DNA from: Methanomicrobium mobile BP
GTDB lineage: Archaea; Halobacteriota; Methanomicrobia; Methanomicrobiales; Methanomicrobiaceae
DNA: 64,000 nt
Assembly: GCF_000711215.1 (NCBI RefSeq)
Contig: NZ_JOMF01000006.1
Location: 186,001-250,000 of the forward strand
Direction of reading: 5' to 3'
The notes beneath the pieces were generated by a model, which searched no databases, was not told the origin of the DNA, and saw nothing but the letters and a program-made list of their open reading frames with translations. Position numbers and translations under genes: made by a program. Of this stretch, positions 4,810 through 60,705 are shown one piece after another (positions within the stretch are counted from its first letter, which is position 1; each line of letters opens with the position of its first letter).

Positions 4810-6327
4810 TCATCTCAGAATATTCCTAATCTCATCGGCATCGACGCGGATTCCGAAGTAACGGAACAGCTGTTCCGCCGCCTGATAAACAAACATCTCC
4901 ACTCCCGAGATAACCGTGCATCCAGCCGTCCGCGCCTCGAAGAGCAGACGGGTCACCGGCGGCGTATAGACAAGATCGAATACGCAGACGCCTTTTCTGA
5001 GGCATACGCGGTTCTCCCTGTCAACCGGCGTATCCTCGGCACGCATGCCGATTGATGTCGCATTTATGATGATATCCGGCATTATCTCGCGCAACATTTC
5101 GATTTCGCCCGCTTTGCACGGAATTTCGACGGGCTTGCCGTCCGTCTGAAGGCAGCCGCCTTCAATTAGACTTGCGTTCATATCCGCGGCAAGCTTCTCC
5201 GCCCTCCCGACCGTCCTGTTGACAACGGTAACGTCGGCGCCGAGTTTCATGAGCGCGTATACGGCAGCCCTCGATGCTCCGCCGGCGCCGATTACCACCG
5301 CTTTCTTCGATTTCACCTTAACGCCGCTTTCTACAAGCGGTTTCATGACGCCGTACCAGTCCGTGTTCGAACCGAGGAGTCTGCCGCCGGCGCCGCCCGT
5401 ATTGCTCATATTGCCCGTGTTGAATACGGTATTTACCGCGCCTATTGCCCTTGCATCCTCGTTGATCTCGTCAAGATACGGGATAATTTCCTCCTTAAAC
5501 GGAATCGTCACGCTTACCGCCCGCAGTCCGCAGGATCTGACGGTGTCTGCGACATCGCCCGCGGTCTCCTTCTCAAGATATGTGCAGTGTGCGGGAATGC
5601 CGTAACGCTCAAAGATTGTATTGAACAGATACGGCGTTCTGCTGTGACCGCTCGGTCTTCCCGCAATCGCACAGATACTGCCGAGCGGGTGCTTCCTCAC
5701 ATAAGAGAAGAGCTGCTCGCTCTTTCTTTCGGGCATGGGCACACCCGAAAACGACCGCAGGACTTCACGGTAACGCAGGACGCCTGCGGAATCTTCGCCC
5801 GCGGCAATATCCGAATCCGATACGGGGGTTGCGGCATCGGCAATGATGCGGACGATATCGTCCGCGACGGCACCCGCTTCGCGGTCGGCGTCGATACGGA
5901 AATCGGATGACCTCAGATATGCGGGATATCTCAGATTTATCAGATATTTTACCTCGTCAACGGGGTCTTTGTCGGTGAGCGCCGGTCGGCTGCTCTCCGA
6001 TATCCTGCCGTAAGAAACATCGGGGCTTACATCGAGGAAGAAGACAAGGGAGTCATGCCGCAGATTTGCCGCATTTTCGGCAGACTGGACACAGCCGCCG
6101 CCGGTTGCGACAACGCAGTCCGATTCGGGAAGTGACGCGATAACCTCGCGCTCAAGATTCCTGAAATGAGCCTCGCCGTATTCTTTGAAGATCTCTTCAA
6201 TCGGCATCCCGCTCTTATTCTCTATCTCGCTATCCGTATCAATAAACGGCTGTCCCAGACGATCCGCAAGAATGCCGCCGACCGTCGTCTTTCCGCTTCC
6301 GCGAAAACCTGTTAATACTACTCTGAT
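4810..6327 (-). CDS. aroKE: fused shikimate kinase (AroK type) - shikimate dehydrogenase
   Basis: About 505 residues. Residues 1-164 are a bacterial-type P-loop shikimate kinase: GFRGSGKTT (7-15), the DxD shikimate motif (D30, D32), FRNLE, ATGGG and the lid motif SSRPAL. After a linker of about 50 residues, 216-505 is shikimate dehydrogenase: GRPSGHSRTP, VTIPFK, GSNTDW, the GAGGASRAA nucleotide loop and NATSIGM. Most archaea use a GHMP-type shikimate kinase, so an AroK P-loop enzyme fused ahead of AroE is unusual. No ATG, GTG or TTG lies upstream of the P-loop in frame; the first ATG (6207) would delete it. A GGAGG ribosome site is followed by ATT (6330) and ATC (6327); ATC has the better spacing and gives the expected start xRVVLTG. 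The gene overlaps the aroA stop by about 10 bp. Confidence 0.9.
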   Translation of the reverse strand: MRVVLTGFRGSGKTTVGGILADRLGQPFIDTDSEIENKSGMPIEEIFKEYGEAHFRNLEREVIASLPESDCVVATGGGCVQSAENAANLRHDSLVFFLDVSPDVSYGRISESSRPALTDKDPVDEVKYLINLRYPAYLRSSDFRIDADREAGAVADDIVRIIADAATPVSDSDIAAGEDSAGVLRYREVLRSFSGVPMPERKSEQLFSYVRKHPLGSICAIAGRPSGHSRTPYLFNTIFERYGIPAHCTYLEKETAGDVADTVRSCGLRAVSVTIPFKEEIIPYLDEINEDARAIGAVNTVFNTGNMSNTGGAGGRLLGSNTDWYGVMKPLVESGVKVKSKKAVVIGAGGASRAAVYALMKLGADVTVVNRTVGRAEKLAADMNASLIEGGCLQTDGKPVEIPCKAGEIEMLREIMPDIIINATSIGMRAEDTPVDRENRVCLRKGVCVFDLVYTPPVTRLLFEARTAGCTVISGVEMFVYQAAEQLFRYFGIRVDADEIRNILR

Positions 6328-49523: not shown

Positions 49524-49940
49524 TCAGGCATATCCGACGGCTTCGGGATCGGGGACCGTATCATTTGCGAGAGGCTTTGCGTTTACCTCTTTATGCGTCA
49601 TACTGAGGTCGCGGCATTTCGCGTAGAAAGAGTTGAGCGACTGCTCGAATTCAGCCATTTTATCCTGCTTATAGTATTCTTTTGCATCCCGATATATTTC
49701 GTTTAAAGAGGAGACATCCTTCCCCTGCATGCGCATCTCGGATAACAATTCTTTCATGAACGCAAGTTCTTCGGAGGCATCGTGCAGAGATATAGATACC
49801 GAAGATACGGGCGTGATATTGCCGGCGGCGCCCGTGTCGCTGCGGACATTGTCGCCCGGAGCACCCGTGCATCCGCAGGAAAGAGCGGTTGCAAAAACTG
49901 CGATAAGCGTTAAACCCACTGCCATTCTTCTTGTATTCAA
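49524..49940 (-). CDS. small lipoprotein
   Basis: 138 residues. Signal with lipobox ALSCGC, then a helical soluble domain of charged residues. TTG at 49940 keeps the positive N-terminus (MNTRR); ATG at 49925 is possible. No family recognised. Confidence 0.7.
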   Translation of the reverse strand: MNTRRMAVGLTLIAVFATALSCGCTGAPGDNVRSDTGAAGNITPVSSVSISLHDASEELAFMKELLSEMRMQGKDVSSLNEIYRDAKEYYKQDKMAEFEQSLNSFYAKCRDLSMTHKEVNAKPLANDTVPDPEAVGYA

Positions 49941-50128
49941 TCCAATCAGGTCCCTTATATTGATATTTACGGAGATACCGACCCGTATCCCCGTGATTAT
50001 TGTAATATACGGAATTTGGCGGGAAATGGGATAAATGAATCAATAGATTCTATTCATTCGTTTAACCGAACGGTTAAACACATCCGATGATTAAAAAAAT
50101 AAAACAATTGAAAAAAAGCATTCGCATG

Positions 50129-50183: not shown

Positions 50184-50270
50184 TTATGCTACCGTTGCCA
50201 GCGCAATTCCCGCTATTACAAGAATGAAAGTTACGTGCATGGTAATTGCGGCTCGTAATCCTCTTGACAT
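50184..50270 (-). CDS. 28-residue hydrophobic membrane peptide
   Basis: A frame of 28 codons: basic start (MSRGLRAA), then a single hydrophobic segment of about 17 residues with a His and ending LATVA. AAAGGAGGTAATAACAT before the ATG is one of the strongest ribosome sites in the window. Upstream are TATA-like sequences (about 50356-50385 on the minus strand) and a leader with a perfect CCCGT-T-ACGGG hairpin and a TCGG-ATT-CCGA hairpin; downstream is a hairpin plus T-run. All this marks a real, separately transcribed gene. No homologue recognised. Confidence 0.65.
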   Translation of the reverse strand: MSRGLRAAITMHVTFILVIAGIALATVA

Positions 50271-50550
50271 ATGTTATTACCTCCTTTCTGTTTTCGGTCG
50301 GAATCCGATCCGTCCCGTTACGGGTCGTTAACGGGTCTTCACGGGATTTCCGTCTTACATATACAAAATCGGCCCGTAAGTATATGAATGAGTAAAACGC
50401 CGATTATTAGACTATCTTACGCGGCGGTTATACAGAATAACCCGCAGACCGACCGAAATAATGTTATAGTCATAAAAAATCGTCATACCGAATGACCGAT
50501 CGAAAGATTAAATCCCGGACAGACGGGGAAAGTCTCAAAAGTGTGTATTA
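50271..50550. promoter_or_regulatory. promoter and structured leader of the small peptide
   Basis: On the minus strand, TATA-like TTGTATATG and TTCATATAC, then a G/C-rich leader with four CCCGT words and two short hairpins (near 50314-50324 and 50298-50308), then the GGAGGT site. Confidence 0.5.
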
Positions 50551-50590: not shown

Positions 50591-50610
50591 GTCCAAAAGT
50601 GTAAAAGTGT

Positions 50611-51040
50611 CTTATATATATTAACCGCAAGAGAAGAGGGACATATGCTTTTACACATATGCCCGCAGGGTCTGGAGTCGAGTGTGTTTTTACTTCCCTT
50701 GCAGTCTTCGCTTAAAAGCGAAGGATATTCTGGCAATTAATGGTTTTATGTCTGGTGATTTTTGGAATGTATGATCCTACCTGATGAATTTTTGGCGTTG
50801 TCTGTTGAATCAAGTTATGAGTTTTGTATGCAGGCTGTCTGAATTCCTGCACATCGCATTGTCCGCAGGTATATCTGCCTTATACCTGCAGCGGTTTTCC
50901 ATTTGTCTGCTTTTTCCACACACTGTAAGATGAAACCGTCTGATCTTTTCATCTCACACTGCATTTCCAGATGCTTACAAGAGGTAATACCCCCCCTAAG
51001 TCATCCTTACATCTTAGTGGTCCCGTCAGAATATAAATGG
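50611..51040 (+). ncRNA. candidate structured non-coding RNA
   Basis: A clear TATA-like cttatatata (50611-50620) precedes about 400 bp with no gene but several perfect hairpins: CTTCGCTT/AAGCGAAG (50706-50723), GCAGGTATA/TATACCTGC with a 7-nt loop (50865-50889) and AGATGAAA/TTTCATCT (50928-50954). GCAGG and CCTGC words alternate (50830, 50846, 50865, 50885), so alternative pairings are possible. It matches no RNA family I recognise. Strand is inferred from the TATA position. Confidence 0.4.
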
Positions 51041-51156
51041 GTCCAATAGAGATAATTCATTCATTTATCCGAATGGTTAAACACATCCGGAATTGACGTA
51101 AAAAAGGTTATTTTCAAGATTTGGCGAAATATATCGGATAAATTATCGATCTGTTT

Positions 51157-53820
51157 TCAATCCGAATCGCTCCGTGATTCCCATGCGGAGATAAGATCGT
51201 CTATCATATCGTCGACGGACTGATACCTGTCGTCCGGATTCTTGGCAATCATCTTCATGATGATATCGTCAAATACCGCGCCGTCGGCAACTCTCTCGGA
51301 GGGCTTTACAGGCTCTTTGTAGAGGATCTCCTCGCTCATGTCGGCAACGCCGTCGCCTGAGAACGGGCGCGTTCCGGTGACGAGTTCATAGAACAGGATA
51401 CCCAACTGATAGATATCCGTCCGCATTGTGGGCATGCCGTATTTCTTGGGCGCAATCTGTTCGGGCGATGCGTAGTTCAGCGAGAATCCTATGGTCGTGG
51501 TCTCGTTTCCGCTGCCGTCGCCGACGATCTTACCGAGTCCCCAATCGGTTATCTTGGGTGTGTTGTCCCCGTCTATGAGGATGTTCTGCGGCTTTATGTC
51601 GCGGTGGATTATCTGTCTCGCATGTGCATAGGAGAGTCCGCGCGCTATGCCCAGAATAATCTCATAGACATCGGAGAGCGGCAGGGGAATGTCCATATCC
51701 GCGAGTGCCCTGGGGACATACTCCATCTCCACAAACGGAATAGGGAGGATGTTGACGGAGTAGAATCTGACAATATTGGGATGATCCAGACCGTCCCAGA
51801 TCTTCATCTCTTTCATGAACATCCTTCCCGTCGCCTCATCGAAGTTTATAGGCACTTTTACGGCGACCGTCATGTCGTCGGTGCGGCGCTGTGCCTTGAA
51901 TACTCTTGCAATGCCGCCTTTTCCGATAAACTCCACATTGTGATAGCGTTCGTTCAGAACTTCAGGGAAATAGGTCGACCCGAGACTCGTCGACATTATG
52001 TTGTTCTCGTCGATAAACAGCACGGTCTCATCGTCGGACTTCGAGTCGGCGTTGCCGTGCCCTGAGGTATACTTCGTAAGATTCGTGTCGAAGACGCGGA
52101 GTTTCCATAGGGCGATTGTATCCGCAAACATCTTGCCGAAGACCACCGGAACGGCGGCGGAAAGCAGGAGCGATGCGGGATACACAAGACCCGTAATGGG
52201 TCCGAGCACGACATCCGAGTTGTAAATGAAGAGAATGAAGATTACCAACGCGATTATCGAGATAATCGGGTGAATCCTGAAAAGTCCCACAGGTACTTTC
52301 GAGCGCAGATGTCCGAACGAGAGGAGGAGCGACGAGGATATGATGTATGCCGTGAGAAGCAGGAAGCCGACCTCGGCATAACCCGAACTGACGCCCTGAT
52401 AGATAAGCCTCGATGTATAGGATATGAAGGCGTAGAGCAACGCAACCGCAAGTCCGGCATAAACCAGCTCGAAGAAGACAAGCTCAAGACCTCTCTTCAT
52501 TCTTACCGCCGCCAGCGAGCCGTAATCGAACGAAAGTCCGATGAGTCCCGCGGTTATTCCCGCGATTATCATCAGTATGAAGACTATCTCAAACGGCGAC
52601 TGATCCATGAAGACCACACGTGTGGGTCTCGAAGGGGTATCCGGTCTGAACGAGCCGTTGTAGCCGTTCAAGCCGGGGAAATTCTCGGGATTGTTCGGGT
52701 CAAAGACATCGGGATTATCGGGACTGCCCGGACCCGGACCTGCAGGGGTGGTCGGATTCAGAACGCCGCCCGGAATATCCGGCGTTGCCGTGCTGTTTGT
52801 CGAATTATCCTGCGGCAGCTCCTGTGCGGGCGTACCTGTCGGTACCGGCGTCGGCTGAGTCTGCGTCTCATCGGGGACCGTCGTGCCCGCAGGTCCGTAG
52901 AGGACATACTCCGCGTTATGGGAGATAAGCGGCGAAGAATCTACCAGGTTGTTTCCGGAATAGAAGAGGTTCTGCCAGAACCTGCCTGAAGTGGCAAGAT
53001 TTTGCAGATTGATATTGTTGATTATCAACTGGTTCTGGAGATTGTACTGACCCGCGCCGTAAGGATCGTAGGGCTTAGAGCCGACACCTGATTTTTCGGG
53101 GCTGCTCTCACCGTAATAGTCGTTCCAGAAGTTTCCGAGCGTTGATGTGAAGGAATTGCCCTCGTAACCGTAGACCAGATCGTTTGTGGACCAGCGGATA
53201 CTCCTGGATACGGACTTGCCGTTGACGATATTCTCGAAATCGTTCAGATACACCGCGCAGTCAACCGAGTCGTCGATATAGATACCCACCCTGTGACCGC
53301 TTATCGTATTCCTTGCAACCGTGGTGCCCGCGGACGAATAAAGAGTGAGTCCCAGAGGAGTCTCTTCGATATCGTTATTCAGGATATTGCAGTTGTCGCC
53401 GCTTACGAGCACTGCGCATACCGCATTGCCGTTTACTTTGAAACCCTCGAAGGTTACGTCCGAGCCCGAGATATGCACGCCGTAATTTCCTTTCTGTGTA
53501 TTGATTACCGGCTTTGTGCCGTCTTCTGAGGCAACTCCGGCAAGATTGACCGATTTTGTTATCTCTATATTCTCGGGATAGACTCCGCCGTAGACAATAA
53601 TTGTACTTCCGGGCGCGGCTTGCGAAAGCGCTTCGTTTATCGTGGAATAGACATTGGCGCCGATGCGGACATCGCCGGCGGATACCGGAACAAAAAATGC
53701 CGACAGGAGCAGGCATGCAAAGAGGAATATGTACAGACCGCGGCTTACCTGGATATTGCCTGCCGATTCCGCCCCGTAACTTCTCTTTACAGCCATATTC
53801 ATCATACACCCCAGCCGCAT
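51157..53820 (-). CDS. receptor-like Ser/Thr kinase with external beta-helix domain
   Basis: 887 residues. Signal or anchor (about 28-48), a NosD-type right-handed beta-helix (about 50-235), a Gly/Pro/Asn-rich linker (about 315-400), about five membrane helices (410-570), and a Hanks-type kinase (about 625-880). Kinase sites: glycine loop GKGGIARVF, VAVK lysine at about 655, HRDIKPQN at 739-746, ASPEQ and DIYQLGILFYEL. DFG is replaced by DWG. The activation segment has several Thr (NETTTIGFS). Gene order puts it after a PP2C phosphatase and a wHTH-FHA protein on the same strand. Autophosphorylation and partner phosphorylation are inferred. A bacterial-style kinase of this layout is unusual in archaea. 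Confidence 0.92.
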   Translation of the reverse strand: MRLGCMMNMAVKRSYGAESAGNIQVSRGLYIFLFACLLLSAFFVPVSAGDVRIGANVYSTINEALSQAAPGSTIIVYGGVYPENIEITKSVNLAGVASEDGTKPVINTQKGNYGVHISGSDVTFEGFKVNGNAVCAVLVSGDNCNILNNDIEETPLGLTLYSSAGTTVARNTISGHRVGIYIDDSVDCAVYLNDFENIVNGKSVSRSIRWSTNDLVYGYEGNSFTSTLGNFWNDYYGESSPEKSGVGSKPYDPYGAGQYNLQNQLIINNINLQNLATSGRFWQNLFYSGNNLVDSSPLISHNAEYVLYGPAGTTVPDETQTQPTPVPTGTPAQELPQDNSTNSTATPDIPGGVLNPTTPAGPGPGSPDNPDVFDPNNPENFPGLNGYNGSFRPDTPSRPTRVVFMDQSPFEIVFILMIIAGITAGLIGLSFDYGSLAAVRMKRGLELVFFELVYAGLAVALLYAFISYTSRLIYQGVSSGYAEVGFLLLTAYIISSSLLLSFGHLRSKVPVGLFRIHPIISIIALVIFILFIYNSDVVLGPITGLVYPASLLLSAAVPVVFGKMFADTIALWKLRVFDTNLTKYTSGHGNADSKSDDETVLFIDENNIMSTSLGSTYFPEVLNERYHNVEFIGKGGIARVFKAQRRTDDMTVAVKVPINFDEATGRMFMKEMKIWDGLDHPNIVRFYSVNILPIPFVEMEYVPRALADMDIPLPLSDVYEIILGIARGLSYAHARQIIHRDIKPQNILIDGDNTPKITDWGLGKIVGDGSGNETTTIGFSLNYASPEQIAPKKYGMPTMRTDIYQLGILFYELVTGTRPFSGDGVADMSEEILYKEPVKPSERVADGAVFDDIIMKMIAKNPDDRYQSVDDMIDDLISAWESRSDSD

Positions 53821-53961
53821 TCCCCTAAACCTTCGGGACCGTGACTCGGGCAGCCCGTCGGGAGACAGGGAATATCATGAAAATATATATGTCATTATAG
53901 TATCATTTAATTGACGATCCAAAAACCCGCGTGTGATCGGTTCCGTGATGTCAGGAAAAAT

Positions 53962-54738
53962 TTAATTGAGATTGAAGATGAGTCTTGCACCTTTTGCGCC
54001 GCGTGCAAGGTCAAGCATGTCGCCGTTGCGGATGGGATACTCTTTTGAGGGCGAAAGCTGTTTGTTGTTGATAAGACTGCCTCCCGTGCTCCTGCAGTCC
54101 TCGTAGTACCATTCGTTGCCGCGAAGTTTGAATATGCCGTGCGGCTTCGTGACACGCGATACCGCCTCATAGCCCGACGAGAGAGCAATCGAGAAGTTCC
54201 CGTCCTTAAGGTATTCGGGCGCGGATGCATCCTCACGACCGATTCTGACCTCCTTCTCTTTGAGGGGCCATGCCTTGCCGTCGTCGTCGCCGCCGAGGAC
54301 GATCAACACGGGAACGCCGGTCTTATTATCTTCCTCGAGCATGCTTCTTACGGCCTTTAACTTCTGATTGAGTTCCTCTTCGCCGATTCTGACGTCGATA
54401 TTGCTGAATATGCTCAGGTTTCTGATGATTCCCTCCATGCCGCCGGGGATGAGGGAGTATTTCCAGACGGGGAGACTTCCCTTTGAGGTTTCTCTTCCCA
54501 TACCCGCCTCTTTCTTGATGACGCCGGTATTCAGAAGCTTATCCAGGTGCTTCTTGGTATTCTCATAGCTCGTGTCTATCTCTTTTGCAATCTCGCGCAC
54601 CTCTTTCGGCTGGTGCTCAATGAGTTTGAGTATCTTTAAGCGCGTGGGATTCGAGAGCACGTTCAGATATTCCGAGAGATCCTCGTAGAAGTCGGGATCG
54701 TTCGAGATTGCAATCGTATTATCGTTTGAATCGCCCAT
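53962..54738 (-). CDS. wHTH-FHA transcriptional regulator
   Basis: 258 residues. Residues about 25-95 are an ArsR-like winged helix (LSNPTRLKILKLIE, SYENTKKHLDKLL). Residues about 145-258 are an FHA domain (VRIGRED, SR at 194, H at 200, STGGSLINN, GDMLDLA) that binds phosphothreonine. The domain pair suggests that a phosphorylated partner, probably the neighbouring kinase or the regulator's own phosphosite, controls DNA binding. It lies between the kinase (gap 141 bp) and the phosphatase (gap 51 bp). Confidence 0.9.
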   Translation of the reverse strand: MGDSNDNTIAISNDPDFYEDLSEYLNVLSNPTRLKILKLIEHQPKEVREIAKEIDTSYENTKKHLDKLLNTGVIKKEAGMGRETSKGSLPVWKYSLIPGGMEGIIRNLSIFSNIDVRIGEEELNQKLKAVRSMLEEDNKTGVPVLIVLGGDDDGKAWPLKEKEVRIGREDASAPEYLKDGNFSIALSSGYEAVSRVTKPHGIFKLRGNEWYYEDCRSTGGSLINNKQLSPSKEYPIRNGDMLDLARGAKGARLIFNLN

Positions 54739-54789
54739 CTTATCACATATATCTCAATTTTTGTCTTTTTTACTTTTTTACCTATTTTT

Positions 54790-55494
54790 TCAGAACCTCA
54801 GCACAACCGCGGTAATGTTGTCGTCCGAGGTTTCAAAAGCCTCTTTAATCAGAGTTTTGGCAATTCCGTTTGCCGATTTAATGTCGAATGCCGATTCAAT
54901 CACATCTTCGTCGAGGTAGTCGTGAAGACCGTCGCTCGAGAGAAGAATGGCATCCCCCTCCTGCGCATTGAAACAGAAAGTATCGACATTGAAGTCGCCC
55001 CCGAGAGAGTGGTTGATGATATTCTTCATCGGATGGAACCTTGCCGATTTTCTCTCAATCAGACCCCTGTTCACCAGATCCTGAACGAGAGAATGGTCGA
55101 CGGTTATCTGACGGAGAGTACTGCTGTAGAGATAGAGCCGCGAATCTCCGGTATTTGCGCAGACAACCGTCCCGTTCTCGACGAATGCGGCAACAAGAGT
55201 CGTGCCCATACCTTTCCGGTCGCCGACGGCGTTCTCGCAGACGGCGCTGTCCGCTTCCTTGAAAGCAAGGATAAGAAGCTCTTTTATCTCGTCTTCCGCC
55301 ATGCCCTCGCGGTATCCGTCCTGAAAAACAGCTCTCAGTCTGGTTACGGCAATATTTGAGGCAATTTCGCCCGCGGCATGTCCTCCCAGACCATCGGCGA
55401 CTGCAAGCAGTATCCCTTTACCGATGGGAACGGCGATGGATGAGTCCTCGTTATGCTCTCTCTTTCCCGCCACCGATACCGAACTGTAATCCAT
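54790..55494 (-). CDS. PP2C-type Ser/Thr protein phosphatase
   Basis: 234 residues. Metal-binding PP2C motifs in order: KREHNEDSS, VADGLGGHAAGE, GTTLVAAF, NTGDSRLYLY, LSSDGLHDYLDE and SDDNITAVVLRF. It should reverse the neighbouring kinase. First gene of the three-gene set; TATA-like sequences lie upstream on the minus strand (about 55556-55594). Confidence 0.95.
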   Translation of the reverse strand: MDYSSVSVAGKREHNEDSSIAVPIGKGILLAVADGLGGHAAGEIASNIAVTRLRAVFQDGYREGMAEDEIKELLILAFKEADSAVCENAVGDRKGMGTTLVAAFVENGTVVCANTGDSRLYLYSSTLRQITVDHSLVQDLVNRGLIERKSARFHPMKNIINHSLGGDFNVDTFCFNAQEGDAILLSSDGLHDYLDEDVIESAFDIKSANGIAKTLIKEAFETSDDNITAVVLRF

Positions 55495-55813
55495 TGGTTC
55501 AAGCTACCTCTAAAACAGATTTTACAAGTAATTACAAGTAATCTATTCTCTTTATCAGAATATATTCTATCTTAATGCTTAAATCTTATATTAATTTTCA
55601 CTATCCGCGCGGTGTTTCCGTATAACCGCGGAGTTATACGCGGAACTTTGCGGTAAATATCAAAGGCTCAGGGTATCTGTAATCATTTCACATTTCATAT
55701 AGCGACATGAATTATGGTGACGTGAATTTTATTGTTGAATATTATGAAACATTACAGAATACTGCAGAATATACATATATGCATAATATGCAGATAAATT
55801 CGGAGAGAAAAAT
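55495..55813. other. divergent spacer between PP2C and the HEAT lipoprotein
   Basis: About 320 bp, no gene. Holds A/T-rich promoter-like sequence for the phosphatase on the left, a G/C-rich palindrome block near 55605-55645 in the middle, and an A/T-rich stretch with atatgcataatatg near 55780 before the lipoprotein gene. Confidence 0.5.
55620..55639. promoter_or_regulatory. perfect inverted repeat GTATAAC-N6-GTTATAC
   Basis: Twenty bp, 7-bp arms without mismatch, between the divergent PP2C and HEAT genes and about 25-60 bp upstream of the phosphatase TATA-like sequences. A plausible operator; the wHTH-FHA protein is the obvious candidate ligand, by position only. Confidence 0.5.
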
Positions 55814-56497
55814 ATGAAGACAAAAATCCGTAATGACGGGAGAATTCTCGGCAGATTACTCAATAACGGCACAATACGCAATGCCGCAAAGGCGACCGCG
55901 ATTGCCGCAGTCATCCTCGCGGTTATCCTTACCTGCGGGTGCACGGGTAACGGCGGCGGCAACGACAAGCCCGTAAGTCCCAAAATCGAGCAGAACATAA
56001 AGGATCTTTACTCGGCAGACGATGCGGTGCGAAAGACCGCCGTCAATAACCTAATACTTGCGGGTGACGAGGCGATAGTTCCGCTCACAAAGGTCTTTTC
56101 GTCCGGCGACAAAACGGCGTCGATGAATGCCGCCGTTGCACTCTATACCATTGGCGAGTCCTCGATTGATCCGCTTATCGACGTTCTTAACACCGGCTCA
56201 CAGACCGAGCGCGAATGGGCTGCAAATACCTTATGCCTCTTTGAAGCCCGCGCCGTGCCCTCACTCATAAACGTCGTAAAGACCGGCAGCAAACAGGGTC
56301 AGGAGATTGCCGAGATTGCGATAATAAAGATAGGTGAACCCGCATTGCCCTTCCTTGAGCTTGAAGCGAACAGGGGAAGTCCCGTAACCGCCGATAAGAT
56401 GAACTCGCTCATCTATTCAATCCGCGCAACCGAAGGTTTGCAGCAGAGACTCTCGGCGGAAGGAAATACAACGACTTCTACTGCCGCGGCTGCCTGA
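55814..56497 (+). CDS. HEAT-repeat lipoprotein
   Basis: 227 residues. A long basic lead, signal and lipobox LTCGC, then about four to five HEAT-like helical repeats (AVRKTAVNNLILAGDEAIVPL, SSIDPLIDVLNTGSQTEREWA). Surface scaffold of unknown partner. Ends with a Thr/Ala tail. Confidence 0.8.
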   Translation: MKTKIRNDGRILGRLLNNGTIRNAAKATAIAAVILAVILTCGCTGNGGGNDKPVSPKIEQNIKDLYSADDAVRKTAVNNLILAGDEAIVPLTKVFSSGDKTASMNAAVALYTIGESSIDPLIDVLNTGSQTEREWAANTLCLFEARAVPSLINVVKTGSKQGQEIAEIAIIKIGEPALPFLELEANRGSPVTADKMNSLIYSIRATEGLQQRLSAEGNTTTSTAAAA

Positions 56498-56562
56498 AAA
56501 AATAAAGATTAATTTCCTTTTTTTTGAAAAACAAGGGTAGTGCAGAGGTAGTGGTGAGACAG

Positions 56563-57180
56563 CTATTGCCGAGCAATCTTATCCGTGTCCACGACCCTTG
56601 TGTTGTAACCGTAGTAGGTGTCTTCAAGGTAGTAGAACATGGCTTTCCGCAATATGACGACATCGCGCTCGCTCAGGATTTTGCCGTCCGACTCCGCCGT
56701 AAGATGAATCACATAGGATTCGGGCGCAACAAGCGGATCGTAATCGCGGCATGAGAACCATACGGTCTCGTTCGGTCGGGTGCGCGTGTCATTGCCCAGA
56801 TCCTCGACCTTTCCCGTGACGCCGCTGTCCCATGAGAGAAGCATGACGTATTCTCCGAATTTCCCAGTCGCATTCCAGTGATATGTGATGTCACCGGCGT
56901 TGTATTGACTTACGGAATCATCGGATGAAACATTGCCCGATCCCGAGTCCGATTGCGGGGAGGGGTAAACGGGCGTTATGTCAAGACCCGGGATTGAGGA
57001 CATCGCGGGGCTCCAGTATTTATGCACGTTCTTCAGCGTGATGTCGTGATTCACCTTGGCTTTATCAACGGTCGTGCATCCCGAAAAGACCGCTGCGGAA
57101 AATAATAGCAACAGTATAAGTGCCGCAAATATCATTTTCGACCGTGATTTTGGTGAATTTGATAATTTTGATATGAACAT
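56563..57180 (-). CDS. lipoprotein of unknown function
   Basis: 205 residues. Signal with lipobox-like FSGC, then a soluble domain with several Tyr/Trp. No family recognised. Directly downstream of tfrB (7 bp after its stop) but on the same strand, so possibly co-transcribed. Confidence 0.65.
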   Translation of the reverse strand: MFISKLSNSPKSRSKMIFAALILLLLFSAAVFSGCTTVDKAKVNHDITLKNVHKYWSPAMSSIPGLDITPVYPSPQSDSGSGNVSSDDSVSQYNAGDITYHWNATGKFGEYVMLLSWDSGVTGKVEDLGNDTRTRPNETVWFSCRDYDPLVAPESYVIHLTAESDGKILSERDVVILRKAMFYYLEDTYYGYNTRVVDTDKIARQ

Positions 57181-57186
57181 GCCGCT

Positions 57187-58785
57187 TCACTGCTCCTGCG
57201 GGGCATTTTTCACAGATGCATTCTCGGCATTTTTCGCGTCCTTCTTCCGATAGCCCTCGACAAGAAGGGTATTGATATTCCTAACGGGCTTATCGGTCAC
57301 GGACCCGACGTGAATCTCACAGAACGGGCAGGATGTCGCCACGATATCGCAGCCGCTCTCCTTTATCTCTTCGCCGCGGAGTTTTCCTATGGCTTCGGCC
57401 TCGGCGGGATTGCCGGACTTCACACCGCCGCCCGAGCCGCAGCATTCCGAGGGCATCTCCACGAAATCGTCGGTTATGAGCCTTAAGAGACGGCGCGGCT
57501 GCTCGCGGATTCCCTGACCGCGAAGAAGGTGACAGGGATCGTGATAGGCTATCTTCAGCCCGATTTTCTCGGGCTTTTCGATATCAATCGCGGTCAGAAT
57601 CTCGTTTATGTCCTTAACCTCGAAAGGCGTGTCGTAGTCGTTCTTAAGGGTGGAACCGCAGCCTGCGCAGACGGTCATGACTGTCTTTATTCCGTGTTTT
57701 ACGAAACAGTCGATGTTCTTCTTCATGAGCTCGGGCACAATCGCGGTCTGACCCGTTCTTATAAGCGGCGATCCGCAGCAGACCTGTTCTTTCGGAGTGA
57801 TAATGCGGATTCCGTTCCGCCTTAAGACCTCGATCGCATCGAGCGCCGTGCTCTGCATTCGCAGGTCGTAAAGGCATCCGGTAAAGAAGCCGACCTCGCC
57901 TTTTACATCGCCGTAGGGCTCAAGAACCTCGTCAATCGATTCGATAAGACCTTTCCTGTCGGGCAGGGGTTGAACGCTGCGTCCCGTGGTCTTTACAAGC
58001 CCGGCAACCTCCTTATGCCGCGGCAATGTGAGACCTTCGCGGTTTGCGAGAATCCTCAGTTTTTCTATCGCTTTTCCGGGTATCTTTATGCTCTTGGGGC
58101 AGGCAAGGACACATGCCTGACATGTCGTGCAGTTGAAGAGCCCTTTCTCCGTAATGCCTATTATGCGGTCTTTGTCGCAATCGCGGGGATCGAGTGCGAG
58201 CCGCATCTCCTGACGCATGTAGGTCGGTCCCGCAAAATCCGTGACCTTCACGGCGGGACAGACCGAGACACAGCAGAGACACTCGATGCAGTCGCGCAGG
58301 GGTTTCATCTCCGCGGTCTCCTCCTTTGAGGGCATTGCAAAGGAGCACGAACATGCGCAGGAGCATGAGCCGGATGAAGAGGCATCCGAACCGTCAGAAC
58401 CGGCGCATTCTTCGCAGGCGGGGACAAGATACGGCATCTCTTTCAGATATTTGCCGATATCAGTGACCAAATCCCTGATTACCGGCAGATCTAGAGGCTC
58501 GAGGAGCATGCCGTCCGCCGCCTCGGTCATGCAGGCAAGCCGCGGTTCGCCGTTGACCTTCAGTGCGCAGCTTCCGCACTGACCCGCGCCGCAGCAGTGC
58601 CTGAAGAGAAGGGTCGGGTCAAGGGTATCGCGAACGGCTTTCAATACATCCAGAACTCTCGCGCCCTCATGGACTTTTACGGAATACTCCTTTATTTTGG
58701 GGGCGCTTTGATCGGCGGGGTTAAAGCGCGAAATTCTGACGCTCAGCATCTTCTCTCCGACCTTCACCTTATCTTTTCCGCTCAT
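57187..58785 (-). CDS. tfrB: thiol:fumarate reductase, subunit B
   Basis: 532 residues. A 2Fe-2S domain (CCGAGQCGSC), two 4Fe-4S motifs (CIECLCCVSVCP, CTTCQACVLACP) and two CCG domains like heterodisulfide reductase subunit B (GCLYDLR..., CCGSPL, CAGCGSTLK, DPCHLLRG, CCGSGGG). With TfrA it reduces fumarate with coenzymes M and B, yielding the heterodisulfide. An insertion at about 124-149 is Ser/Gly/Asp/Cys-rich (CSCACSCS). GGAGGTAATGTGCA precedes the ATG, which overlaps the tfrA stop. Confidence 0.93.
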   Translation of the reverse strand: MSGKDKVKVGEKMLSVRISRFNPADQSAPKIKEYSVKVHEGARVLDVLKAVRDTLDPTLLFRHCCGAGQCGSCALKVNGEPRLACMTEAADGMLLEPLDLPVIRDLVTDIGKYLKEMPYLVPACEECAGSDGSDASSSGSCSCACSCSFAMPSKEETAEMKPLRDCIECLCCVSVCPAVKVTDFAGPTYMRQEMRLALDPRDCDKDRIIGITEKGLFNCTTCQACVLACPKSIKIPGKAIEKLRILANREGLTLPRHKEVAGLVKTTGRSVQPLPDRKGLIESIDEVLEPYGDVKGEVGFFTGCLYDLRMQSTALDAIEVLRRNGIRIITPKEQVCCGSPLIRTGQTAIVPELMKKNIDCFVKHGIKTVMTVCAGCGSTLKNDYDTPFEVKDINEILTAIDIEKPEKIGLKIAYHDPCHLLRGQGIREQPRRLLRLITDDFVEMPSECCGSGGGVKSGNPAEAEAIGKLRGEEIKESGCDIVATSCPFCEIHVGSVTDKPVRNINTLLVEGYRKKDAKNAENASVKNAPQEQ

Positions 58786-60494
58786 TGCACATTACCTCCT
58801 TTCCCTGCGCCTTCGGCACTTATGTCCTCAGCACCCGCTTTCTCTATACCCTCGCGGTATATCGACTGGTAAGTATGCCCGTACGGGGATGTTTCCGGCG
58901 TCCAGTCCTGCACGATATCCTTTCTTACATGGGCGCCGCGGGACTCCTCGCGAAGAAGGGCGCCCCTTACGACAAGCGCCGCCACGGTAAGCATATCTTC
59001 AAGAACGCAGCATTCAGCAAGAACCGCGGGGGAATCAGCCTTAGGAGTCATCTCCGAAAGTTCCTCGATTTCCGCGAGTGCGGTTTCAAGCTCCTCAGCC
59101 GTTCTGAATATGCCGACATTCTCCCACATCGTCTTCCTCAGTCTCTCCTTTATCTCCGCAATGCTGTCGCTGCCGTTGAGGAACCTGTTGAATCTCAGCT
59201 CTTCGGCGGCGAGCTGACCCACAATAGCGGGGGAGTTCATGAGCGCCCTGTGCATGACCGACTTACCCGCAAATTCACCCGCACGCTTGCCGAAAACCTG
59301 TGTATCCGCAAGTGAATTTCCTCCGAGACGGTTTGCGCCGTGTATGCCGCCTGTGACCTCTCCGCATGCGAAGAGACCCTTGATCGTCGTTCTGCACTCG
59401 GGCGTTATCCTTAAGCCCCCCATCATATGATGCGCCGTCGGTGCAACCTCCATCGGCTCTTTCCTGATATCGACGCCGAAGTTCAGTAACTGAGCAAGCA
59501 TCATGGGAAGGCGCTCCTCAATCACGGCTGCGCCCAGATGCGTCACATCGAGATATACGCCGCCCTTGTCCGTCCCGCGTCCTTCGGCAATCTCGGTAGC
59601 AATCGATCTTGCGACAACGTCCCTTGTCGAAAGTTCCATCCTCTCGGGGTCGTATTTCGCCATGAAACGCTCACCGCGTGAATTCTTGAGGTATCCGCCC
59701 TCGCCGCGGACAGCCTCGGTAATCAGCCTGCCGCGTGCGTCATACGGATAGACCGCGCCAGTGGGGTGAAACTGCACCATCTCCATATCTATGAGTTCGG
59801 CGCCGGCGCGGTATGCCATTGCATAACCCTGTCCGTTTCCGGTCGCACAGTTCGTGCAGACATCATATATCTGACCCGTTCCGCCGGTTGCCAGCACAAC
59901 GGCATCGCAGCGTAAGACGATCATATTGCCGTCGCGGTCAAGACCGACAGCACCGCATACACGCACTTCTCCGCCGGAGAGCGTCTCGGTAAGCAGATCG
60001 ATTACGGTGACTTCCTGAATAATGCGGATATCACCGCCGCGTACCTTCTCCATCAGCGTCGCCATTATCTCATGCCCCGTCCTGTCGCCCGAATAACAGG
60101 TGCGGTTGAACTTCTGACCGCCGAAATGGCGCTGTGCGGGATGAGTGCCCTCAAAACCGTCGCAGTCGCAGCTTAAGTCAAAGACCGCGCCCCAGTTCAT
60201 GAGGTCGGCAAACCTCTCGGGCGCCTCCTCCACAAGAATCTTCACGAGTTCGCGGTCATTGAGGTAGGCGCCGCCGCGAATCGTATCCTCAAAATGAGAA
60301 CTGCATGAATCTTTCGGGTTAAGGACGGCATTGTATCCGCCTTCCGCCATGGTGGTGCATCCGCCCTTTCCCGTGACCGAGCGCGAGAGAAGGATAACAT
60401 CGCCGTATTTTGCGGCTTCCACAGCCGCTCTGCATCCCGCTCCGCCGCTGCCCACAACAAGCACATGACAGTCCGTTACATTATCAGCAAGCAT
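58782..60494 (-). CDS. tfrA: thiol:fumarate reductase, subunit A (flavoprotein)
   Basis: 570 residues. FAD domain starts VLVVGSGGAGCRAAVEAAK; TMAEGGYNAVL, MGGLRITPECRT and GEVTGGIHGANRLGGNSLAD are those of fumarate reductase/succinate dehydrogenase flavoproteins. Catalytic subunit of Tfr. Start at 60494 (MLADNVTDCHVLVVG); an upstream in-frame ATG at 60590 would add an unlikely leader. ATGA overlap with tfrB. Confidence 0.93.
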   Translation of the reverse strand: MLADNVTDCHVLVVGSGGAGCRAAVEAAKYGDVILLSRSVTGKGGCTTMAEGGYNAVLNPKDSCSSHFEDTIRGGAYLNDRELVKILVEEAPERFADLMNWGAVFDLSCDCDGFEGTHPAQRHFGGQKFNRTCYSGDRTGHEIMATLMEKVRGGDIRIIQEVTVIDLLTETLSGGEVRVCGAVGLDRDGNMIVLRCDAVVLATGGTGQIYDVCTNCATGNGQGYAMAYRAGAELIDMEMVQFHPTGAVYPYDARGRLITEAVRGEGGYLKNSRGERFMAKYDPERMELSTRDVVARSIATEIAEGRGTDKGGVYLDVTHLGAAVIEERLPMMLAQLLNFGVDIRKEPMEVAPTAHHMMGGLRITPECRTTIKGLFACGEVTGGIHGANRLGGNSLADTQVFGKRAGEFAGKSVMHRALMNSPAIVGQLAAEELRFNRFLNGSDSIAEIKERLRKTMWENVGIFRTAEELETALAEIEELSEMTPKADSPAVLAECCVLEDMLTVAALVVRGALLREESRGAHVRKDIVQDWTPETSPYGHTYQSIYREGIEKAGAEDISAEGAGKGGNVQ

Positions 60495-60705
60495 ATCTAA
60501 GAAAGAATTGGTTCTAAAATATGATAAACAATTATATGCGGATATTACGCCGAAAATTTCCGGCGGATTTTGCGCACGGTATAATAACACGGTTTTATAG
60601 CACGAATTTGGCGCTCGCTATTATCTCATAATCACATTAATTACTTCGCACACTTAATTATATGATACAAATTATCTTCGGTAAGTGAGTGAATTGAGGA
60701 TTTTA

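Follow-up and report, generated by a model that had tools for sequence, protein, structure and literature searches.

A receptor kinase gene paired with a wHTH-FHA regulator gene: a candidate phosphothreonine signalling module of Methanomicrobiales

This analysis concerns a stretch of 64,000 nucleotides from Methanomicrobium mobile BP (contig NZ_JOMF01000006.1, positions 186,001 to 250,000), referred to here as the window, and within it three adjacent genes for a PP2C phosphatase, a regulator with a winged helix-turn-helix (wHTH) and an FHA domain, and a membrane-bound receptor kinase. The window genome, that of a gut Methanomicrobium, comprises 1.71 Mb, and its regulator is 98-99% identical to the regulators of two Methanomicrobium assemblies from ruminant guts. 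As an earlier reading of the letters, called here the sequence-only reading, had described, the three genes share one strand, the minus strand, with the transcription order PP2C, wHTH-FHA, kinase, and the Pfam and NCBIfam matches agree with the domains named there (PP2C; ArsR-like HTH with FHA; Hanks-type kinase with beta-helix):

54790-55494, minus strand: Stp1-like PP2C phosphatase of 234 aa, at the start of the operon (PP2C_2, 1.5e-13; Stp1-type NCBIfam, 4.5e-58)
53962-54738, minus strand: wHTH-FHA regulator, 258 aa (HTH_5, 2e-8; FHA, PF00498, 2.7e-8)
54715-54717, minus strand: codon of Thr8 of the regulator, an invariant tail threonine among variable neighbours and the proposed phospho-switch residue
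51157-53820, minus strand: receptor kinase, 887 aa (Pkinase, 1.2e-41; NosD beta-helix, 4.4e-15)

The two matches in the regulator confirm that an FHA domain is joined to an ArsR-like DNA-binding domain. Regulator and kinase are likely co-transcribed despite a gap of 141 nt between their genes. The phosphatase reaches 196.5 bits against the 230-bit cut-off of the narrower Stp1 equivalog of NCBIfam and therefore does not carry that label.

The regulator consists of a tail (residues 1-13), an ArsR-like wHTH (~15-96), helices (100-137) and the FHA domain (~144-256). In the AF2 model the tail is disordered, with a pLDDT of about 33, and it contains a threonine at position 8 that was found in 80 of 80 regulators and never replaced by serine. 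The entropy of this position is zero, although it is encoded by all four codons (ACA/ACC/ACG/ACT = 30/21/18/11), as opposed to 1.9-3.4 bits at the other tail positions (2-7 and 9-13); the residues that follow are mostly hydrophobic, with I, L or V at +1 to +3. A single threonine in a variable, disordered tail is, by analogy, the layout of the GarA/OdhI phospho-switches. The residues of the FHA domain that would bind phosphothreonine (G167 and R168, S/T194 and R195, P199 and H200, N224) are kept, either invariant or conservatively exchanged. A fold search with the regulator placed FHA structures on top and returned GarA, EmbR, phosphorylated OdhI, the DgcB FHA domain bound to its own phospho-tail, and ArnA. 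At the other end of the function, the recognition helix TSYxNTKKH is nearly invariant among relatives, so that one shared DNA site is predicted.

The kinase had been described in the sequence-only reading as having an external beta-helix, membrane helices and an internal Hanks domain. These parts are present, and the AF2 model places them as follows: a signal or anchor helix (20-43) is followed by the beta-helix (~50-226), a disordered proline-rich linker, five membrane helices (~409-584) and the kinase domain (~619-883). If the N-terminal helix is a signal peptide or an anchor, the kinase domain should lie inside the cell; hydrophobic membrane segments precede it in the members scanned. All 79 aligned members keep the catalytic residues K655, E671, D741 (HRD), N746 and D759 (DxG). 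The DWG motif that replaces DFG, and that had raised the worry that the kinase is inactive, occurs in 79 of 79 relatives, and this favours a family signature over decay, so that DWG as a sign of inactivity was rejected. The active kinase CK2alpha also has DWG. The nearest solved kinase structure is PknB, and the matches include the PknB-GarA complex. The family of PASTA kinases Stk1/PknB (NF033483) is matched in the kinase part only, with 206.7 bits against a cut-off of 450, and a NosD beta-helix stands in the place of PASTA. The ectodomain is exchanged among members, being a NosD beta-helix, PEGA repeats or short loops. The beta-helix receptor is thus present in the window kinase as proposed, but across the family it is one of several interchangeable sensors and was rejected as an essential part.

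Within Methanomicrobiales, a search with the regulator located it in 155 of the 232 genomes and 33 of the 40 genera, and among 393 genomes sampled from the phylum it was restricted to this order. A scan of 84,980 species gave 134 regulator relatives, and nearly all of the best 80 of these 134 carry the label of a Methanomicrobiales genus or family or of the order itself, while the labels of a few are only broad or are doubtful (‘Euryarchaeota archaeon’, in one case a ‘Thermoplasmata’ metagenome-assembled genome). Eighty loci were examined, 79 from relatives and that of the window; one (L095) is unreadable for the downstream gene due to a contig edge. A Hanks kinase lies directly downstream of the regulator on the same strand in 78 of the 79 readable loci, a count which takes in one locus with a broken kinase frame (L031). 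In the sole exception, L085, a second, divergent wHTH-FHA gene lies 1 nt before the kinase. This gene (L085:10051-10854) lacks the tail threonine, has an altered recognition helix and may encode a decoy or an altered regulator. Another divergent pair, the third in genome G118 (L274:8377-11048), has HHD for HRD in the kinase and, in the regulator, a tail threonine whose distance from the first helix is unchanged. PP2C adjoins the regulator in 18 of the 80 loci, and the metal-binding and catalytic residues, including the metal-binding Asp motifs, are kept across these 18 phosphatases. From the proposed co-conserved set of three genes, the pair of kinase and regulator thus stands order-wide, whereas PP2C is optional and was rejected as an obligatory member. 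The comparison of gene order confirms kinase plus wHTH-FHA as the obligatory unit in Methanomicrobiales.

The two partners also vary together. The distances between the kinase domains correlate with those between the regulators with a Mantel r of 0.83, as opposed to at most 0.10 in random permutations and at most 0.77 after swapping partners within genomes, and 0 of 1000 controls reached the observed value. Where a genome contains several pairs, the nearest relative of a regulator in other genomes correctly predicts its kinase in 33 of 34 cases. Such co-evolution is what insulated, dedicated pairs would show. Among 197 genomes sampled from the phylum, 35 contain the FHA domain, 34 of them Methanomicrobiales, and the places of the domain match the regulator family by position or frame length; the sole detected phosphothreonine reader in these cells would therefore be a DNA-binding protein. 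No FHA protein other than the regulator was detected in the window genome, and no strong Hanks kinase other than the window kinase; a further, weak kinase match belongs to consecutive genes for a vWA protein, a PP2C and a divergent kinase (L222:8398-12228, C5), which resemble a TerY-type triad and form a separate phosphosignalling system. A second FHA/Hanks system feeding the module was rejected, since the genome has this one FHA protein and its other PP2C belongs to that triad.

A palindrome, TWNAACC-N4-GGTTNWA, is common to the upstream regions of the operons and is also found before neighbouring genes, in most cases with a TATA box 24-26 bp downstream of it. Exact matches to its core AACCN4GGTT are present in 18 of the 80 upstream regions, with 0.37 expected from shuffles, and the 79 regulator loci contain 36 exact copies of TWNAACCN4GGTTNWA as opposed to 0 of the reversed control (1.22 Mb). 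A TATA-like hexamer lies 22-30 nt from the site at 41 of 65 non-redundant sites, and a secondary peak lies two helical turns, about 20 nt, further away. As the 79 loci were chosen only for the regulator, whereas the 65 sites include loci fetched for the site, the 36-versus-0 count is the less biased of the two. The window genome contains a single perfect copy of TWTAACCNNNNGGTTAWA (TWTAACCN4GGTTAWA), at 50061-50078, and five copies with one mismatch, two of them at 51064-51081 and 55621-55638. All six have a TATA-like box 24-26 nt downstream, which the two-mismatch copies inspected in this genome generally lack, and three flank the module:

55621-55638, no strand: predicted operator TATAACTCCGCGGTTATA (minus) of the PP2C-regulator-kinase operon; one mismatch to the consensus, conserved in relatives
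55595-55587, minus strand: TATA-like box ATTAATATA of the 55621 operator
51064-51081, no strand: predicted operator TTTAACCATTCGGATAAA (minus), just downstream of the kinase gene; one mismatch
51038-51031, minus strand: TATA box ATTTATAT of the 51064 operator
50061-50078, no strand: predicted operator TTTAACCGTTCGGTTAAA (minus); its TATA-like box lies near 50036-50029 (minus)
50415-50432, no strand: weak candidate for a fourth operator, TATAACCGCCGCGTAAGA, found by eye, with intact left half and three mismatches; TATA-like box at the same spacing

Sites with two mismatches in L051 and L054 align with the weak candidate. We infer that the palindrome is the operator of the regulator; its location ahead of the TATA box, as is usual for activators, suggests activation rather than repression.

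The predicted targets comprise the module itself, small secreted proteins or lipoproteins, an ABC exporter and noncoding-like transcripts. In the window, the following features lie behind the operators downstream of the kinase gene:

50600-51015, minus strand: predicted transcript of noncoding type, conserved in part and with approximate boundaries (alignment A2, nine loci)
50184-50270, minus strand: hydrophobic micro-ORF of 28 codons, predicted target; three relatives have similar micro-ORFs in the equivalent position
49524-49940, minus strand: small secreted protein of 138 aa that resembles a lipoprotein, encoded behind the perfect operator and a predicted target; syntenic in relatives, no Pfam match

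The conserved stretches of the first transcript (window and L051-L059) include AATTGATTCGACAGACCA, ATCAGGTAGGATCA and CTCGACTCC, and several relatives also share GGAGGTGATG. It has no Rfam match and no conserved long ORF in the nine-locus alignment. RNAalifold found no fold shared by all copies, and the z-scores of individual hairpins are modest; for these reasons no structured RNA family is claimed. The transcripts behind several palindrome promoters contain no long ORF, and their 5' ends are similar to AUCAGRGUG. Elsewhere in the window genome, two near-identical tandem intergenic units with palindrome and TATA at fixed spacing (L239:5344-5361 and 5858-5875; C4:413343 and 413857) lead to transcripts without an evident long ORF, and similar tandem copies were found in G111 and G112 (L264, L265). 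Among relatives, the sites stand before an ABC exporter ATPase (L267, L270, L274, L275; joined in G118 by its permease and by a partner that is secreted), PP2C together with a CARDB-type secreted protein (L269), a small secreted protein (L263, L268; genus g23, probably that of Methanofollis) and a paralogous regulator (L272). By eye, a small two-helix domain appears common to the 49524-49940 lipoprotein and the targets of L263, L266 and L280 (secreted; 114 and 132 aa), with no Pfam match for those scanned. The common theme of these targets is the cell envelope, for which reason an envelope signal is proposed.

On the other side of the operon, the neighbourhood is also conserved:

55814-56497, plus strand: divergent HEAT-repeat gene adjoining the 55621 operator; conserved neighbour and possible target (Pfam, synteny)

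This gene, together with a pair resembling TfrB/TfrA (succinate/fumarate reductase-type, named by eye), occupies 55814-60590, and the position beside the module is kept in relatives. An antiphage function was considered and rejected, as the PADLOC matches are to a generic kinase domain and a generic HTH, and the regulator has no phage homologue.

Taken together, the module may be a self-contained threonine-phosphorylation counterpart of a two-component system. An envelope signal would activate the membrane kinase via its exchangeable outer sensor domain, and the kinase would phosphorylate the regulator encoded next to it on Thr8 of the flexible tail. The regulator's own FHA domain would capture phospho-Thr8, within the molecule or across a dimer, and thereby alter the DNA-binding state of the ArsR-like wHTH. 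The predicted binding site of the protein is TWNAACC-N4-GGTTNWA, at an activator-type position some 25 bp ahead of the TATA box, from which the protein would control its own operon along with small envelope proteins, the ABC exporter and the conserved noncoding-like transcripts; Thr8 would be reset by the adjacent PP2C or by one encoded elsewhere. We give this mechanism as a whole, a dedicated kinase-regulator threonine-phosphorylation switch on palindrome promoters, a probability of about 0.7. The sequences themselves show the order of the genes, their pairing throughout Methanomicrobiales, co-evolution, the integrity of the active sites, the invariance of Thr8, the conservation of the palindrome and the geometry of the promoters; from these we infer Thr8 phosphorylation, FHA capture, the identity of the palindrome-binding protein, activation over repression, and the signal. 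The short route from surface to promoter suggested by the sequence-only reading gains strength from the invariant Thr8 and the conserved predicted operator.

Several observations weigh against this mechanism. The divergent paralogue of L085 lacks Thr8, and most loci have no adjacent PP2C. The activation-loop threonine of the kinase is not conserved in all groups (e.g. one group with KKSSIAGFS lacks it), so that a GarA-like docking on the kinase would not be universal. In addition, exact palindromes occur in at least four genomes without a detected regulator (three each in G049 and G063, two each in G133 and G134), while several regulator-bearing genomes have none, and another protein may thus bind the site, or assemblies may hide the gene. 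In Methanoculleus (e.g. G046), exact palindromes lie far from the regulator gene.

It is from these last points that one alternative draws its support, namely that the palindrome belongs to another regulator and that the wHTH-FHA protein acts at different sites. We consider this unlikely, as the palindrome is strongly enriched at and around the regulator operon across genera and also stands before the paralogous regulator; furthermore, in family f3, whose members mostly lack the regulator, 18 regulator-less genomes contain one site, whereas the regulator-bearing G017 has two. A second alternative, to which we assign a similarly low probability, is membrane sequestration: the FHA domain would bind the autophosphorylated activation-loop threonine, the active kinase would hold the regulator at the membrane and free the promoters, and Thr8 would be secondary. 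GarA is recruited through the activation loop of PknB (reference cited in PMC6151718), the activation loop of the window kinase contains ETTTIGFS, and no other FHA protein that could read the kinase was found in the window genome; however, a loop threonine that is lost in the KKSSIAGFS group, set against an invariant Thr8, argues for the tail. Less probable again is a broad-specificity, PknB-like receptor with mainly other substrates and the wHTH-FHA protein as a mere feedback reporter, for which the PknB-type domain and the frequent pleiotropic targets of bacterial receptor kinases speak (PMC4601284); feedback on its own operon is compatible with both models, but one-to-one pairing and the co-evolution of paralogues suggest dedicated partners. 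That unrelated genes are neighbours by chance, or that the kinase is decayed, for which DWG instead of DFG could speak, is hardly conceivable with DWG in 79 of 79 relatives, every catalytic residue kept and adjacency in 78 of 79 loci.

The preferred mechanism, a dedicated phosphothreonine switch, looks like an undescribed signalling route from the cell surface to genes. The step from receptor kinase to FHA transcription factor is of a known kind, and there is a fair chance that specialists would call the module a new class. A wider claim, which we hold at even odds, is that Methanomicrobiales possess a class of ‘phosphothreonine two-component systems’, in which dedicated pairs with a one-threonine tail switch and a palindrome at fixed distance from TATA have been duplicated and re-sensored and control envelope genes and noncoding transcripts. 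The archaeal FHA work found is that on Sulfolobus ArnA, and the module would add a compact Ser/Thr kinase route to transcription in euryarchaea. As residues (Thr8, Arg168, the DWG kinase), DNA site and promoters can be named and the module is present in cultured genera of Methanomicrobiales, each step is directly testable. The remark of the sequence-only reading that it knew of no described archaeal system with this exact layout agrees with the open-licence literature searched, where no description of the kinase/wHTH-FHA pair was found.

Among the closest known systems is PknH-EmbR of Mycobacterium tuberculosis, in which the FHA domain is required for the interaction, phosphorylation raises promoter binding and the phosphatase MstP reverses it (PMC4601284). 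Both systems combine a membrane receptor Ser/Thr kinase, a DNA-binding protein with a C-terminal FHA domain and a phosphatase. However, EmbR is a SARP protein with an OmpR-type DNA-binding domain, BTAD and FHA, whereas the regulator described here has an ArsR-like wHTH and no BTAD match, and its alignment with EmbR is 13% identical with a TM of 0.33. The methanogen module further differs by its invariant tail threonine, archaeal TATA promoter, order-wide one-to-one pairs, paralogues and swapped sensors.

GarA controls metabolic enzymes and, unlike the regulator, has no DNA-binding domain. PknB-GarA (and OdhI) nevertheless share with the module a conserved tail threonine, a PknB-type kinase and an FHA domain in the same protein, and both proteins are structurally close; the phosphorylation of the tail is a prediction here, while in GarA Thr22 of the N-terminal TTSVF motif is phosphorylated and contacted by Arg81 and Ser95 of the FHA domain (PMC6151718). 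Rv2175c of M. tuberculosis, a wHTH protein phosphorylated on Thr9 in its disordered N-terminal part in the system with PknL, which lowers DNA binding (PMC6151718), resembles the regulator in this tail, but no FHA domain is described for it. In Archaea, Sulfolobus ArnA/ArnB with ArnC/ArnD links an FHA protein and Hanks kinases to transcription control (PMC6509490, PMC5300886, PMC10470591). However, ArnA is paired with a vWA protein, its FHA domain is not fused to an ArsR-like wHTH and no gene pair of receptor kinase and regulator is described, whereas the downstream neighbour of the FHA gene here is a kinase in 78 of 79 loci.

As in two-component systems, a sensor kinase with variable input is combined with a dedicated DNA-binding regulator in co-evolving paralogues, but a Ser/Thr kinase and an FHA domain replace histidine kinase and receiver, for which the three window proteins gave no Pfam or NCBIfam match. 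This suggests that the logic of histidine-kinase systems, with a swappable sensor, a dedicated regulator and insulated paralogues, was reached here via Ser/Thr phosphorylation.

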